Below, in pieces: positions 9-28,593 of a stretch of DNA of 34,176 bases. Source of the stretch: Candidatus Gastranaerophilales bacterium (lineage in GTDB: Bacteria; Bacillota; Clostridia; Lachnospirales; Lachnospiraceae); assembly GCA_023663225.1 (NCBI GenBank), contig JAMPHU010000030.1, forward strand, positions 1 through 34,176. Reading direction: 5' to 3'. Within the stretch, counting starts at the first letter, position 1. Every line of letters starts with the position of its first letter. The position numbers and the translations under genes were made by a program. Under the pieces are notes generated by a model. It searched no databases. It was not told the DNA's origin and saw only the letters and a list, made by a program, of their open reading frames with translations.

Positions 9-254
9 TTACGGGAACAATATAAAAGCGCTCAACAAACTTAGGAAAGAACCCAGCTTTTTGTATGTGATTTTTCTGCCAAAGTAAATAAGTGCTACAT
101 CATCCAGATGATCCTTATTATTTTCCCAAAGGTATTCGTAAATCGTGCATTCCGGCAAAGGAGCATTGATGGCTTCCTGGCTGTAGTACTGCAGCCAGGG
201 TTTGTCGATGGATGGGTAGCCGGTAAGTGGCTTGTCAGTGGTGTTTGTGCTCAT
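9..254 (-). pseudogene. Truncated N-terminus of an AMP-dependent acyl-CoA ligase
   Basis: The first 70 or so residues resemble the leader of AMP-binding acyl-CoA synthetases: a TGYPSIDKPW stretch, then TIYEYLWENN, then YFGRKITY just ahead of where the ligase core should begin. Resemblance stops after ITYKK and the frame ends at a TAA about 18 residues later, so the adenylation core (several hundred residues in the family) is missing. The start ATG at 254 is preferred because AAGGAGG lies 6 nt upstream; an upstream in-frame ATG at 275 has no such site. The break near position 55-60 could be an insertion or deletion junction. The opposite strand is open from position 1 to 87 and could be the tail of another gene, but I do not recognise it. 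The window edge prevents checking what lies beyond. Confidence 0.6.
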
Positions 255-322
255 GATTATCCTCCTTAAATTCATCGCTTATATAGGGCAGTGATTTTAA
301 CCTATGTCTGGCAATATACACC

Positions 323-3300
323 TTACAGAGAATCAATAACCCGCAGCATCTCCTCAATGTCCTGTTCCCTATTTGCCTGCATTTCCTCGCTGATCTCAAA
401 TACTTTCTGTAGACACTCCCACTTTTCTTTTACTCCCTTAGACCGCGCGTTTAAATTCACCTGCAAACTGCCCTCCAGCCTTCCTTTGACATAATCTTTT
501 ACCTGTGCCAGGCATTCGGTATCATCATTTGCATAAACCGCTACAAGCATACGAATCAATGTATCCAACGTCTTACTGTCATCCTCGCCCTGTACAAGCA
601 TCCGATAGAGCATGACAGAGCAGAACTGCTTCACGGCAATCTCATAGAAACCCATATGCAGATAATAGTCACCCATATACTGCATCTGCTCATACAGCTT
701 TCCGTTCAAGCCAAAAAACTCCGAAACGGTTTCTAGCGACAATTCTTCTCTTTTCCACAGATAAACTTCCAATCCACCCTTTTCTGTACTATCCCTTGAA
801 ACTGCTTCTGTTTTCCGTATCCGTGATTCTGCAGGAGCGCTTAACGAAGTACGCGGCAAAAGCTTGCTGCTCTGCTCCATAACCTCTTTTTCAAGAATAC
901 AGGCAGTTTCCACCTTTCCTAGTTTAAAGAGATATGCACAGATATTGTGATAGCTTTCCTGCATTTTGATGGTGTAATCTTCAATTGTGCGGTCATTTGC
1001 CTTGATATTGACGGCTGCCTGCCGCCTCGCTTTGCGCAGCCAATAGGTTCTTGCTCCATATTTCCATATTTCATCCGCATTGTCTGTTTCCTTAGGTGCT
1101 TTTATACAATACCATGGATAATTTCCCCTCAGATTCTGCTGATCAGTCAAAAGTAACTGTTTCAAAATTTTCCCGTACTTATCACTCTGTATTTCGCTTT
1201 CCATCAATTTCTGATATGCCTGAATTAGTTTTGTAAATAATTCTCTATGTATTTCCGTGCATGAATTAACCGTAAACTCCGGTGACTCCTCCGGGAAGAC
1301 TATAATTTCATAGATTTCTCTTTCACCTTCGCTTATTTTACTTTCCTGCACCAACCTGTCCAGCAACTGCACCGCCAGTTCCTTCAAATTGTTCATACCA
1401 TCCTCACCATAATCACGCGCACTGGAATAACTATGGTTTGCAGATAAATCATAGGCAATCGCATTTCGCGCTTTCACTATCTTTTGCTGACATTGAAAAT
1501 ATTCGGCACTATCCGAGTATTCCCGCTTTATTTTTTCCAACATTTTTTCCCAGAAATACAAGCATAGCTTCTCTAACTGCTCTGCCTCATCATTCTGGCT
1601 ATTATTCGTATACAAATCCCCCAGATTAAAACAATACTGCATATAATCACAAATGTATGGGAAAGGTTGTACTGAATATTCCCATTGATCTATATTTTCT
1701 CCGATTTGATTCTTTAGATTATCCAACGCTGACAAATCAATTTGGCTTGTTTTCACGAAAGGAATCTCCTTTTCTTCCCGCACCTTGTCTATATATTCAC
1801 TGTATAAGCGAATGAAGTCATCACTAAAGCTTCCCCTCTCTTTGTTTTGAGCATAGATGACTGCCATCGTGTTTTTCAGAGATTCCATACTTTTCTTGTT
1901 GTCCGCCTCAGTATAGGCATATGCCAACTTTACAAAAGTCTGTAACCGCGTTGACTCATACCATATTTCCTTATGTTCGACCGTTTCCTTTCCTCCGTAG
2001 ATCATGTTGAATTTCTCAAATAAATATTTCAATACATCCAGCTTAATATAGTTGCGGCTGCCATTATATAAACCCTCCTTCACCGCTTCGTGAAGCTTAA
2101 ATTTCCCGTTCTCCAATTCTTCTATTGGAGCGGTATTTGACAAAAGATTCCAAGCATTCAACAAGTGATTATCAAATCTTTCTCTTACCAAATCTATCCA
2201 CAGGGCATCCCATTCATCAATGCAGGATAAGATCTGGAAAGCATTTATCATCAAATCCGTCAGATCCTTGTAAAAATAGTAACCAAAGATATCTTCCCTT
2301 TTTTCCAGTGCCACAAAATCTTCCGGCACAATCGTATGGGAAGGATCTCTTTCCAACGCTCTGTAATGCAAGACAATCAGGCGAAGCAAATAAGGGAGAT
2401 ATGTGTATTGTCCTTTCTTATGCGTCGATATCCGTCCGGCTTCCACCATCTTTTCAATAATGGTATTGTAAGTTTCATCTTTTGAATCAGGACAGGGACA
2501 GCACTCCATAAAATACAGTCTGGCTTCTTCTTCATTGAAACCTTGCAGCTCATATACTTCTAACATACCATTTGTTCTAATGATATCTTTAAACTGAGAA
2601 ATCACATTCTGTCTGCTCACAATGATCCACATTGCATCAAAGGAGTCCATCAGTTTGCCCGGCTGCGAAAGCCATGTCTGATCTCTGCCAAGGTCATTGT
2701 TCGCCACTAACTGAAAATTGTCTAAAATGATGACCGGCTTCAACAACTGTTGTTCTGCCGCTTTGTCCCCTTTGATTGCACCGACTAATAGGTTGCGCAG
2801 TATTTCCTCTCTGACCATCTTTGAAGAAAATGCTTCAACAATTTCCTGTAATAATGCTCTGGCGCGATTTTCCTGTGAAGTCTTTACCACTATTTGTGGA
2901 ATCGCAATAAGAGCTTTAGCAAAAGGAATTGCACCGGCAAGTTTATCAACGACTTCAAGCGCTGTAGAAATAGTATCCTGTGTATCATCTTGCTCTATTA
3001 AATAATTGCATGTTTCCGTTACTATTTCCGTGATTGCATCTGCCATGTCTGAACCATTATCTTTGGAATGCTCCACAGCGTATCGCTTATTTACGCCGTA
3101 AACCCACTCATATATGGTAATCAACTGTTCGACCGCCTTATTCTTCTGATGCGGATGATGTATATAAAAATCTTGCAGTTCCCTTGCTATTTTGTAATAA
3201 ACGTCTACTTCATCTGCACAGTCCGAAATATCCGCATAGCTAATGCAAACGGACTTATACTTTGAATTTGTACGGATTTCATGACATATCTGCCTCATCA

Positions 3301-3487
3301 AATAAGATTTTCCTGTGCCGGGAAAGCCATGTACAGAAAGCAAGTATCTCTGATTGCCCGCTCTCTGACAGTAACTGCTTATCTTATTTAAAATCTCCCC
3401 CTCATCATTACGGGGAATATTCACAAAATTTTCCCTCGAAAATGCCAGTTCCGACTTCCTGTTTGTCTTTTCATTTGTCTTGCTCAT
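323..3487 (-). CDS. Large P-loop NTPase, STAND/AAA-like, with long helical C-terminus
   Basis: The protein has 1054 residues. A Walker A motif GFPGTGKS lies at residues 54-61, a Walker B-like KPVIILDNFQ near residue 250, and a WIIVSRQNV strand (sensor-1-like) about 40 residues later. The remaining roughly 700 residues are rich in helices with TPR-like hydrophobic spacing, and no signal peptide or membrane segment is seen. This layout, an NTPase switch plus a long helical sensor region, is typical of STAND NTPases used in bacterial signalling and antiphage defence; the defence role here is inference. The start ATG has AGGAG 7 nt upstream. The gene overlaps the 3' end of the DUF218-like gene by 17 nt, which suggests translational coupling. 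Base composition is AT-richer than the core genes to the right, consistent with acquisition. It could also be an ORC/CDC6-like AAA protein of other function. Confidence 0.75.
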   Translation of the reverse strand: MSKTNEKTNRKSELAFSRENFVNIPRNDEGEILNKISSYCQRAGNQRYLLSVHGFPGTGKSYLMRQICHEIRTNSKYKSVCISYADISDCADEVDVYYKIARELQDFYIHHPHQKNKAVEQLITIYEWVYGVNKRYAVEHSKDNGSDMADAITEIVTETCNYLIEQDDTQDTISTALEVVDKLAGAIPFAKALIAIPQIVVKTSQENRARALLQEIVEAFSSKMVREEILRNLLVGAIKGDKAAEQQLLKPVIILDNFQLVANNDLGRDQTWLSQPGKLMDSFDAMWIIVSRQNVISQFKDIIRTNGMLEVYELQGFNEEEARLYFMECCPCPDSKDETYNTIIEKMVEAGRISTHKKGQYTYLPYLLRLIVLHYRALERDPSHTIVPEDFVALEKREDIFGYYFYKDLTDLMINAFQILSCIDEWDALWIDLVRERFDNHLLNAWNLLSNTAPIEELENGKFKLHEAVKEGLYNGSRNYIKLDVLKYLFEKFNMIYGGKETVEHKEIWYESTRLQTFVKLAYAYTEADNKKSMESLKNTMAVIYAQNKERGSFSDDFIRLYSEYIDKVREEKEIPFVKTSQIDLSALDNLKNQIGENIDQWEYSVQPFPYICDYMQYCFNLGDLYTNNSQNDEAEQLEKLCLYFWEKMLEKIKREYSDSAEYFQCQQKIVKARNAIAYDLSANHSYSSARDYGEDGMNNLKELAVQLLDRLVQESKISEGEREIYEIIVFPEESPEFTVNSCTEIHRELFTKLIQAYQKLMESEIQSDKYGKILKQLLLTDQQNLRGNYPWYCIKAPKETDNADEIWKYGARTYWLRKARRQAAVNIKANDRTIEDYTIKMQESYHNICAYLFKLGKVETACILEKEVMEQSSKLLPRTSLSAPAESRIRKTEAVSRDSTEKGGLEVYLWKREELSLETVSEFFGLNGKLYEQMQYMGDYYLHMGFYEIAVKQFCSVMLYRMLVQGEDDSKTLDTLIRMLVAVYANDDTECLAQVKDYVKGRLEGSLQVNLNARSKGVKEKWECLQKVFEISEEMQANREQDIEEMLRVIDSL

Positions 3488-4511
3488 TTTCTTTCTCCTG
3501 TATGATTTTTTCCATCGCCAACAGCGCAGACCTTATCTCCTGCAGATAATTCACCGCTGTCTGCAGTCCTTGCAGATGCGCCGACCATTCCTGCGGAAAA
3601 CCGACAGTTTCTATACTGCATCCATAGGGTATCCCCAAGGTTCGTATCGCCTCCATCTGCTGATAAGGAACATAAATCTGGCTTGTGACAAGCAAAAGTC
3701 TCTCACGCTCCACCAGACTCTTTTGCTTCGCCCAAAATTCAAAGGTGTCCGCCGTATTTGCCCGCCGCCTGTCCGGTTCTGTGGACGCCGCCGCCAGTAC
3801 CGTCAGCGGGATTTTATGTTCAAACTGCATAACGCCCCACGAACGGTTACTGTTTTCGCATAATTCTTTTTTGACAGACTTGACAGCCGCAGATGCAAAA
3901 ATTTTCTTAGCCGCTTCACACATCAGATCAAATTCTGTGGCGGCTTCAGGCGCATAAGTATCTGTTGCATTCCTCTCCGAGTCCGCTATGAGACGCATAG
4001 CCGTCAATCCCGTTATTTCGCTTGACGCAACACCATATCGACGGCACAATTCTTCCGCATATTTCATGCGGAAGAAACAGGACATTCTGGCGCCGCCCAA
4101 GACAAGGATCGCGTCATAACAGGAATGAGCAGGCAACTCACAATCCACCATGCCCAACTTTGAAGCAGCTTTTAAGGCCGCCAATATCTGGCTTTCCGTT
4201 AGACCGGAACCATCAAGAAGCCAACGGGCATTTTCTCCTGTTTGGGCGTCCTGTGCACATTTCTGTAAGCTCCTGAAATCCCAAATTCTGCTGAAATCAA
4301 CCAACCATCTGAGACGCTGCTTAAAGTCTGTATTTTGCGGGATCTTTCCGTCGAATTGCGCTGCCAAAGCGTCCAACTCAGGAGCTTCCAGCCATGCAGC
4401 ACACTTAGATAACAATGTTTCCCTACTATCTGTACAAAGATATTCAAAAATAATTTTCACCCCCTCTACAGCGCTTAGTACCTGTTTCAAAAAGTAGACT
4501 TTTTGAAACAC
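3471..4511 (-). CDS. DUF218/YdcF-like protein, first gene of the switch-controlled unit
   Basis: Up to 346 residues. The first 130 are helical and unrecognised. The C-terminal half looks like a degenerate DUF218 (YdcF/SanA-type) Rossmann-like domain: AILVLGGARM at about 134-143, NTADTFEFW at 252-260 in place of the usual NTxEN element, and LLLVTSQIYVPYQQ at 272-285 matching the VTs-x-x-Hm-x-Ra strand, although the usual His is absent. The biochemical role of the family is poorly defined. The start is unsettled: GTG 4511 lies inside the left recombination site with no ribosome site in the orientation shown, and GTG 4460 has GAGGGG directly abutting it. After inversion of the adjacent segment, AGAGGTG would sit 8 nt before an in-frame CTG replacing GTG 4511. 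It overlaps the NTPase gene by 17 nt, so the two are probably coexpressed. Confidence 0.65.
   Translation of the reverse strand: MFQKVYFLKQVLSAVEGVKIIFEYLCTDSRETLLSKCAAWLEAPELDALAAQFDGKIPQNTDFKQRLRWLVDFSRIWDFRSLQKCAQDAQTGENARWLLDGSGLTESQILAALKAASKLGMVDCELPAHSCYDAILVLGGARMSCFFRMKYAEELCRRYGVASSEITGLTAMRLIADSERNATDTYAPEAATEFDLMCEAAKKIFASAAVKSVKKELCENSNRSWGVMQFEHKIPLTVLAAASTEPDRRRANTADTFEFWAKQKSLVERERLLLVTSQIYVPYQQMEAIRTLGIPYGCSIETVGFPQEWSAHLQGLQTAVNYLQEIRSALLAMEKIIQEKENEQDK
4484..4509. repeat. Left 26-bp recombination site of an invertible segment
   Basis: Quasi-perfect dyad: half-site GTTTCAAAAAGT, central AG, half-site ACTTTTTGAAAC. The length (12 + 2 + 12) is that of serine-invertase crossover sites such as hix/gix. 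Compared with the reverse complement of the site at 4568-4593 it matches at 22 of 26 positions, including the whole GTAGAC core; in direct orientation only 20 match and the core dinucleotide differs. It covers the first codons of the DUF218-like gene as drawn from GTG 4511. Confidence 0.75.
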
Positions 4512-4523
4512 TTCATATATAAT
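4495..4523 (+). promoter_or_regulatory. Promoter inside the invertible segment, pointing right as shown
   Basis: TAGACT (4495-4500, within the left site) is followed after exactly 17 nt by TATAAT (4518-4523). Ten of twelve positions match the sigma-A consensus. As shown it reads rightward, antisense into the end of the recombinase gene and away from the DUF218/NTPase unit. Further along the same strand AGAGGTG (4551-4557) looks like a ribosome-binding site without a gene to serve in this orientation. A weaker leftward pair, TTCAAA with 17 nt to TATATA (8 of 12), exists on the other strand, so the OFF state may not be fully silent. Confidence 0.6.
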
Positions 4524-4567
4524 GATTTAGGGAAGATTTTTGAAGTAAATAGAGGTGATAAAAGGCT
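4510..4567. promoter_or_regulatory. 58-bp predicted invertible DNA segment
   Basis: This is the sequence between the two inverted 26-bp sites. It is AT-rich, has no gene of its own, and carries a rightward promoter -10 and a rightward Shine-Dalgarno-like AGAGGTG. Flipping it would place promoter, leader and ribosome site directly upstream of the DUF218-like gene and in frame with it. The neighbouring serine recombinase is the obvious candidate enzyme. Inversion itself is inferred; only one orientation is visible in this assembly. Confidence 0.6.
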
Positions 4568-4593
4568 GTTTCACTAAGTCTACAATTTGAAAC
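4568..4593. repeat. Right 26-bp recombination site of an invertible segment
   Basis: Half-site GTTTCACTAAGT, central CT, half-site ACAATTTGAAAC. It is the inverted partner of the site at 4484-4509. The recombinase stop codon TAG (4582-4580) lies in the middle of this site. The recombinase-side half and the central AG (minus strand) would be kept after strand exchange, so the stop codon should survive inversion. Confidence 0.75.
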
Positions 4594-5206
4594 AATTTTC
4601 CTGATCTTTTTCTCTATTCCGCTCCCGACACCTGCGGAAAAAGGTAGAATCGCTCATATTTAAGGCTTCCGCCGCCTTGCGGATAGAAATTTCCCCATTC
4701 TCCCACATTTGATAATACTTTTCAAAATCCGCCGGAAGATTTCTTTTCTGACAGCCGAATTTGACTCCCCGCTGTTTTGCCGCCGCGATCCCCTCCGCCT
4801 GACGCTGTTTGATAAACGCCCTCTCGGTTTCCGCCACGTAGGCGAGAATCTGAAGCACCAGATCGGCAATAAATACGCCTGTCAGATCGGAGTGGGAAGA
4901 GTTTGTGTTTAAAATGGGCATATCCAAAACTTGTATATCCGCCTCGATTTCTTTTGTGATGATTCTCCACTGTTCCAGAATTTCTCCGTAATTTCTTCCC
5001 AATCGGTCAATACTTTTGACTACAAGCACGTCCCCTTTTTTTAAAACTTTTAACAGTTTTATGTATTCCGGCCTTGAAAAGTCCTGCCCTGATATTTTGT
5101 CCAAATAAATATCAGATGCTTTGATCTGTTGCTCCTGCATTGCCAGAATTTGACGTTCCGGATTCTGATCCTTTGTAGAAATTCGTACATACCCATACTG
5201 TTTCAT
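4580..5206 (-). CDS. Small serine recombinase, DNA invertase/resolvase type
   Basis: The protein has 208 residues. An N-terminal resolvase domain begins GYVRISTKDQNPERQ with the nucleophile Ser10; SGQDFSRPEY and DVLVVKSIDRLGRNY carry the conserved arginines, and the ETERAFIKQRQAEG stretch is the start of the long E helix. A C-terminal helix-turn-helix (ISIRKAAEALNMSDSTFF) should bind the crossover site. Length and architecture match the Hin/Pin/Tn3-resolvase group rather than large serine integrases. The start ATG at 5206 is chosen because AGGAGG lies 7-8 nt upstream; upstream in-frame codons have no such site. The gene reads toward the pair of inverted 26-bp sites and its stop codon is inside one of them, which ties it to the switch. 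It could instead be a remnant of a mobile element, but no transposase or second res subsite is seen. Confidence 0.88.
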   Translation of the reverse strand: MKQYGYVRISTKDQNPERQILAMQEQQIKASDIYLDKISGQDFSRPEYIKLLKVLKKGDVLVVKSIDRLGRNYGEILEQWRIITKEIEADIQVLDMPILNTNSSHSDLTGVFIADLVLQILAYVAETERAFIKQRQAEGIAAAKQRGVKFGCQKRNLPADFEKYYQMWENGEISIRKAAEALNMSDSTFFRRCRERNREKDQENCFKL

Positions 5207-5243
5207 CTTGTCCGCCTCCTCGCATCCAGTCATAATCTTTGGC

Positions 5244-5339: not shown

Positions 5340-5450
5340 ATGGAAAAAGATAAACACTTAGGATTGCGAATCGACTCAGAGACACATGAGAAACTCAAAA
5401 GCCTTGCAGAATACGAAAGCCTCTTGCTTTTTTCTATTTTGGGTGTATGA
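5340..5450 (+). pseudogene. Ribbon-helix-helix protein fragment, 36 codons
   Basis: ATG at 5340 follows GGGAGA by 5 nt. The peptide begins MEKDKHLGLRIDSETHEKLK and continues SLAEYE, which is the beta strand and first helix of a ribbon-helix-helix (Arc/MetJ-like) DNA-binding domain. The second helix, normally starting with a GRS/S-type turn, is replaced by an unrelated hydrophobic run ending at TGA. Such small proteins serve as antitoxins or mobile-element regulators. It is divergent from the recombinase gene and may be a leftover of the element that brought it. Confidence 0.5.
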
Positions 5451-28449: not shown

Positions 28450-28593
28450 CTACCCCCTCATTTCTGAGCGACTTGTCGCGAAGAGGCGACGAGAAATTCG
28501 CGTAGGCGATTTCTCGTCTGCCATCAAGGCTATTTGTTTTCGCTCAGAAACAAATAGCCGATTGAAAAATAAGCTATCAAGCTTATTTTTCAA
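28450..28593 (-). CDS. Candidate 47-residue small protein upstream of nnr
   Basis: A TTG start at 28593 has GGAGGGGAGA immediately upstream. The frame runs 47 codons to TAG, followed by a single base and then the nnr ATG. The peptide starts MKNKLDSLFFNRLFVSERKQ, is basic, and ends SRSEMRG; I do not recognise a family. The nnr ribosome site GAGGGGG lies in its last codons, so translation would be coupled. The same DNA is made of four stacked perfect or near-perfect hairpins, so it may instead be a repeat element that happens to be open. Protein function, if any, is unknown. Confidence 0.45.
   Translation of the reverse strand: MKNKLDSLFFNRLFVSERKQIALMADEKSPTRISRRLFATSRSEMRG

Follow-up and report, generated by a model that had tools for sequence, protein, structure and literature searches.

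Near one end of the window, as the whole stretch of 34,176 nucleotides analysed here is called, a small serine recombinase gene is followed by two dyad sites enclosing a short segment, into which a promoter extends, and by three cargo genes (Table 1). The recombinase contains a Resolvase domain (PF00239; E = 2.8e-27) and keeps the conserved columns, including Tyr, Arg, and Ser near the N terminus; we take the catalytic residues to be among its invariant columns. The homologues aligned with it mostly begin at about Met10 of the ORF, near position 5206, and its solved relatives in the PDB comprise Sin, gamma-delta resolvase, and DNA-invertase chains, with Sin and gamma-delta scoring best. By domain and length the protein is a small serine recombinase, in agreement with the original prediction of a Hin/resolvase-size enzyme next to the sites, and its stop codon (TAG, 4582–4580 on the minus strand) lies, as also predicted, inside one site, where it includes the crossover dinucleotide. 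The stop codon stays as before when the segment is flipped in silico, and the first site is found at the window's offset (−12) in 13 of 44 other loci with AG/CT centres. An Arc-family gene adjoins the recombinase in 19 of the 44 AG/CT loci with enough upstream DNA (window included) and in 0 of 32 GT/AC loci, and is a candidate regulator of the switch. The copy in the window is truncated, and regulation may therefore be abnormal here.

Table 1. Coordinates of the features at the recombinase and cargo locus of the window
Feature	Position	Strand	Remarks
Third cargo gene, probable start of AMP-binding ligase	9..275	-	near contig end; weak sub-cut-off match
Second cargo gene, STAND-type NTPase	323..3487	-	AAA_22/NB-ARC P-loop
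First cargo gene, weakly DUF218-like	3471..4511	-	true start probably 4460 or nearby, past the site
Cargo-side recombination site	4483..4510	.	13+2+13 perfect dyad, centre AG 4496-4497
Promoter	4495..4523	+	-35 TAGACT 4495-4500, 17-nt spacer, -10 TATAAT 4518-4523
Predicted invertible segment between crossover dinucleotides	4498..4579	.	82 bp; flipped in relatives
Recombinase-side recombination site	4567..4594	.	13+2+13 dyad, centre CT 4580-4581
Small serine recombinase	4580..5233	-	Resolvase domain and C-terminal region; 217 aa ORF
Truncated divergent Arc-family (ribbon-helix-helix) gene	5340..5420	+	matches 27/52 residues of intact relatives

The cargo-side site reads TGTTTCAAAAAGT AG ACTTTTTGAAACA, with arms palindromic at 13 of 13 positions, and the recombinase-side site reads TGTTTCACTAAGT CT ACAATTTGAAACA, with arms palindromic at 9 of 13. 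The arms of the two sites are inverted repeats of each other, equal at 22 of 26 positions. The inverted dyads and their AG and CT centres had been recognized correctly in the original prediction, and only their extent, given there as 12+2+12 (26 bp), is better described as 13+2+13 (28 bp). The sites are separated by 56 bp and their centres by 84 bp, or 8.0 turns of 10.5 bp, which bears out the expectation of a very small switch. With a score of 44, this is the top pair of the 34-kb window (runner-up, 34), and none of five block-shuffled windows contained any pair scoring at least 34. When up to two mismatches are tolerated, the window genome contains the site pattern at the two switch sites only. 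Elsewhere in the window (28530–28592), two neighbouring strong hairpins (dyads 11/13 and 12/13) are possibly terminators.

The −35 element of the promoter overlaps the crossover dinucleotide of the left site, while the −10 element is inside the segment, exactly as the TAGACT-17-TATAAT arrangement had been read before. The −35 lies across the crossover, and the outer arms terminate in GT, so that the same −35 is rebuilt in both orientations. As assembled, the promoter aims at the 3' end of the recombinase gene and away from the cargo, which corresponds to OFF; judged by sequence, the promoter on the segment could face the downstream gene, as in a phase-variable promoter. When any of five spacings was accepted, a 6/6 match arose in 0.8% of shuffled segments. 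In the 45 AG/CT loci taken at a score of at least 32, a threshold equal to the shuffle maximum, an exact TATAAT lies 17 nt from the site-borne −35 in 35 (29 OFF and 6 ON, counted as orientation in the assemblies); the other 10 comprise 3 OFF-like, 1 ON-like, and 6 undecided loci. A AAAGAGGC-like motif recurs in several AG/CT segments, close to the end away from the −10; the window version is AGAGGTGATAAAAGGC. In the GT/AC branch, unlike in AG/CT loci, no promoter is carried by the sites, and the best promoter-like match, a weak indicator, has the higher score toward the recombinase in 17 of 30 loci, toward the cargo in 3, and is tied in 10.

Paired sites, flips, and spacing among relatives of the recombinase

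Relatives of the recombinase were collected, and paired dyads were sought past its end, blind to the central dinucleotide. The discovery set consisted of 119 distinct loci, including the window, after loci with less than 120 bp downstream or with a repeated stretch had been dropped. Pairs scoring at least 37 were found in 54 of the 119 loci, above every shuffle (maximum, 32), and 53 of these 54 were asymmetric and inverted (26 AG/CT, 26 GT/AC, and 1 AC/GT), the remaining one being AT/AT. For the later set, 151 loci were fetched afterwards, among them 2 from viral contigs searched with the window recombinase and 39 obtained with a GT-branch relative, and 143 were examined; one all-N row and five exact duplicates (window included) were removed. 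At a threshold of 35, which is loose in that the best shuffle reached 35 and five shuffles reached at least 34, this set gave 42 pairs (29 asymmetric inverted, 12 AT/AT, and 1 neither), 41 of them complementary; at 37 or above, all 31 were complementary. Direct-polarity pairs numbered 0 among the 54 discovery pairs scoring at least 37 and 0 among the 42 later pairs scoring at least 35. Both sets together contain 113 unique complementary pairs scoring at least 35, with site centres 75–286 bp apart. At least one pair of the later set, that of locus L222 with its G+C-rich arms and 281 bp, is possibly a hairpin that arose by chance. No convincing pair was present in 65 of the 119 loci of the discovery set (score below 37) and in 95 of the 143 examined in the later set (score below 35).

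The central dinucleotides occur as AG/CT, GT/AC, AC/GT, AA/TT, TT/AA, and TC/GA, and a complementary change of both crossover dinucleotides is what inversion demands. Two inverted dyads with a complementary asymmetric 2-bp core, the hallmark of invertase sites, are thus present in the window and in its relatives. The symmetric AT/AT core of 12 of the 42 unique later pairs has no polarity by itself, and some other rule would be required at these loci for inversion to prevail over deletion. The first ORF past the second site is read in the direction of the ON promoter in 65 of 67 testable discovery loci, a count based on 72 discovery pairs scoring at least 35, five of which were dropped as too short.

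Two further relatives of the recombinase are found in the window genome itself. Downstream of the one at 3347–3973 (minus strand) in L146 (G000:C91:1-9000) is a second such switch, with GT/AC centres 127 bp (12.1 turns) apart, a score of 35, and arms unlike those of the window switch; the gene behind it encodes what we take to be a membrane protein resembling an O-acyltransferase. A third related recombinase, at 4577–5182 (minus strand) in L145 (G000:C42:11000-21000), has no convincing site pair (best score, 28) and is directly followed by a gene that is cytidylyltransferase-like by sequence. In L029 (5000–6200), the switch is followed, close to where the contig ends, by part of another recombinase in convergent orientation, with a 28/28 inverted repeat; this is either a real duplication or an assembly artefact.

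Comparison of orientation among related genomes, proposed with the original prediction, revealed three pairs of relatives flipped exactly at the crossover dinucleotides. L017 and L119, whose recombinases are 69 and 68% identical to that of the window, have near-identical flanks around a segment that is inverted exactly from one crossover dinucleotide to the other: identity is 146/202 as is and 186/202 after an in silico flip, and the promoter faces the cargo in L119 and away from it in L017. The same treatment raised the identity of L047 to L080 from 184/285 to 257/285, and that of L061 to L078 from 175/246 to 226/246. Altogether, 83 segments were compared, giving 64 similar pairs (score above 0.25), of which 53 had the same orientation and 11 were inverted; the flips described here are the best 3 of these 11, and the remaining 8, most of which involve L119, L061, or L080, are weaker. 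The relatives thus show that the design flips, and flipping of the window copy itself is predicted from its sequence.

The distances between site centres pile up near 84, 94–95, 105, 115–116, 126, 136–138, 147, and 166–167 bp, i.e., at multiples of about 10.5 bp, with most close relatives of the window at 94–95 bp (9 turns). As this pattern was noticed by eye in the discovery list, the discovery p-values are post hoc; replication relied on the loci fetched after noticing, tested at 10.5 bp and phase zero after clustering. The new-only clusters scoring at least 35 gave n = 35, R = 0.53, a phase of −0.3 bp, and p = 5e-5, the lowest value attainable with the 20,000 draws of the jitter test, and those scoring at least 37 gave n = 26 and p = 2e-4. 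At 40 or above the signal was weaker (n = 16, p = 0.0039), with the phase drifting to −0.9 bp. For all clusters R was 0.57 (n = 72), and for distinct lengths only it was 0.40 (n = 48). With one locus per 70%-identity recombinase cluster, R was 0.48 (n = 37, p = 5e-5), and 60%-identity clusters (R = 0.11, p = 0.44) are powerless, as there are seven, one of them with 110 loci; clustering takes out the shared ancestry of lengths only in part. The deviation from a whole turn is at most 2 bp in 88 of the 113 unique pairs, compared with 38% expected by chance (4/10.5), and exceptions include L026 at 80 bp and L022 at 87 bp. The best period by bootstrap was 10.3 (5–95%, 9.9–11.0). Low-score control pairs are weakly periodic at 10.5 bp (n = 89, R = 0.19, p = 0.028, phase −1.3), so a small part of the pattern may come from sequence periodicity. 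The whole-turn spacing suggests a compact, helically phased synapsis.

Cargo of the window and of related loci

The original prediction placed the first codons of the DUF218 gene inside the left site. A start there was rejected: the in silico flip brings a TAA within the site into the frame extended by the ORF finder, in L024 the frame read from the site hits a stop ahead of the first cargo gene, and three other relatives of this gene align from ORF residue 33–37 onward only. The cargo start therefore probably lies downstream of the site, at the GTG at 4460 or at a codon nearby.

A role of the unit in defence, which had also been proposed, was not established. The match of the first cargo gene to DUF218 (13.5 bits, E = 0.07) is below the Pfam gathering score of 27.6, and the third cargo gene has no match in Pfam. 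In a PADLOC search for known defence families, the first cargo gene matched none and the NTPase none at 0.001 (best E = 0.0062), so that neither of these two genes has a match to a known anti-phage defence family at that threshold. Only 6 of 397 family genomes, that of the window among them, contain a relative of the first cargo gene. In L024 and in L142, which is the same place as L007, AMP-ligases accompany relatives of the DUF218-like and NTPase genes, the AMP-binding genes coming after the NTPase in both. The relatives whose switch precedes a DUF218-like gene (L024, L007/L133, and, as a partial match, L022) are OFF, as is the window locus. L141 (6865–10037, minus strand) contains two overlapping genes, one distantly related (about 30%) to the first cargo gene and one with a SIR2_2 domain, whose PADLOC matches are ThsA/LmuA-like; this is a possible pair of an NADase and a DUF218-like protein, and the overlap only hints at a defence role of the cargo.

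Among the related loci scanned with Pfam, the recurring cargo consists of surface proteins, glycan genes, and AMP-ligases or NRPS. Surface proteins (LRR/BspA, ChW, or Ig-like) lie behind the switch in L004, L011, L015, and L021, and AMP-binding ligases or NRPS in L009, L012, L017, L020, L024, and L142. The other matches are a mannosyltransferase-like protein (L008), DUF6020 (L010), LytR-CpsA-Psr (L028), an FAD-binding protein (L014), a BTAD regulator (L023), and, in L026, a sub-cut-off PA14 match alone. Pfam gave no match for the chosen ORFs of L002, L003, L005, L006, and L018, and L030 (kinase) has no convincing site pair.

Proposed switch, alternatives, and known systems

Based on these features, the window locus is very probably a self-contained promoter-inversion switch run by the adjacent small serine recombinase. 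The invertible promoter, its dedicated recombinase, and the OFF state seen in the assembly, which made up the original prediction apart from the defence label, are strongly supported by the complementary dinucleotides, the conserved promoter geometry, and the three flipped pairs of relatives. The recombinase would bind both dyads, and the sites would synapse across the 84-bp loop of eight turns, in which whole-turn spacing would let them face each other despite the very short loop. Cutting at the AG and CT of inverted polarity, rotation, and rejoining would then flip the 82 bp, the sites providing the −35 (T|AG|ACT, remade either way) and the segment the −10. In the ON state the promoter would fire into the DUF218-like, STAND NTPase, and AMP-ligase cargo; in the OFF state it would fire toward the 3' end of the recombinase gene and presumably yield RNA antisense to that gene, with a parallel in the fim switch. 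We infer that this recombinase acts, that the segment flips in this species, and that the promoter and the antisense effect operate as outlined.

Alternatively, the two dyads would be mere operators, bound by the recombinase or another factor for self-regulation in DNA that never inverts. This would agree with the overlap of the sites with the 3' end of the recombinase gene and with a promoter, and with the single orientation known for the window locus, from its single assembly; operators, however, do not need complementary central dinucleotides, and the segments of relatives are flipped exactly at these positions, making this explanation very unlikely. A pair left over from a resolvase or a transposon end, with no regulatory switch, is still harder to credit, even though the best-scoring solved relatives of the recombinase are resolvases (Sin and gamma-delta): high-scoring pairs include no direct one, a promoter lies between the sites, and the cargo is co-oriented in 65 of 67 loci.

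A further alternative is a switch that once worked and is now decaying, locked OFF in the window genome. We regard this as unlikely, since the recombinase ORF and its conserved residues are intact, the sites equal those of relatives in quality, the 84-bp distance amounts to 8.0 turns, and the promoter matches exactly; on the other side stand the truncated Arc gene, the recombinase-side site palindromic at 9 of 13 positions only, and the lack of an ON copy among the loci with this cargo. For the wider family, we propose, tentatively and with slightly less than even confidence, that the switch of the window belongs to a widespread Clostridia class of enhancer-free micro-invertases, with whole-turn switches whose sites face each other across a loop of mostly about 90–180 bp and whose length steps by one turn, and that one member drives the STAND-NTPase unit stochastically ON and OFF. 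The phasing would reflect the synapsis itself.

As in Hin, Gin, and Cin, a small serine recombinase and two inverted dyad sites are combined for inversion, but here the recombinase lies outside the invertible segment. Wild-type Hin uses Fis and an enhancer, whereas the short segments here (56 bp between the window sites) leave little room for an enhancer; Fis is not known from Firmicutes. In the work of Haykinson and Johnson in 1993, assembly of the Hin invertasome reportedly depends on helical phase, with an engineered site-to-enhancer distance. Short-loop synapsis by a serine recombinase would be tied to the helical repeat in both cases, here through natural site-to-site distances across the family. 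In Bacteroides, a serine invertase of the Mpi type acts on invertible promoters. Promoter inversion is likewise proposed here, but with one recombinase beside one switch and with a promoter divided between site (−35) and segment (−10); the match of the recombinase to the Mpi model PRK13413 (NCBIfam) is partial in length, with E = 2.5e-13 and 50.2 bits, below the cut-off of 272. The fimS and Clostridioides difficile RecV switches are also short promoter or leader switches with ON and OFF states; they use tyrosine recombinases and different sites.

Hin works by a mechanism involving Fis (PMC3798978), and known Hin/Gin/Cin-type invertible segments are about 1–4 kb long (PMC12529663), compared with the 75–286 bp between site centres here. 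Gut invertons have been catalogued by read mapping, with invertible promoters and nearby recombinases also in Firmicutes_A/Clostridia, according to PMC11892184, where the linked Clostridia group 139 is assigned to tyrosine recombinases, in contrast to the serine recombinase here. The sections of that source considered here do not mention helical spacing; the present family may overlap with its supplementary motif tables. Among the literature matches listed and the passages considered (including PMC4784862, PMC5903667, PMC9368917, and PMC7105139), no paper dealt with this cassette or with the helical phasing of naturally occurring site pairs.

If true, the proposal describes a compact switch of one protein and one promoter with a simple length rule, in which the synapsis of short segments by serine recombinases could be studied to advantage. 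A further suggestion is that gut Clostridia may carry a recurrent cassette for phase variation of surface proteins, glycan genes, and NRPS/AMP-ligases, and possibly also of NTPase-based defence.
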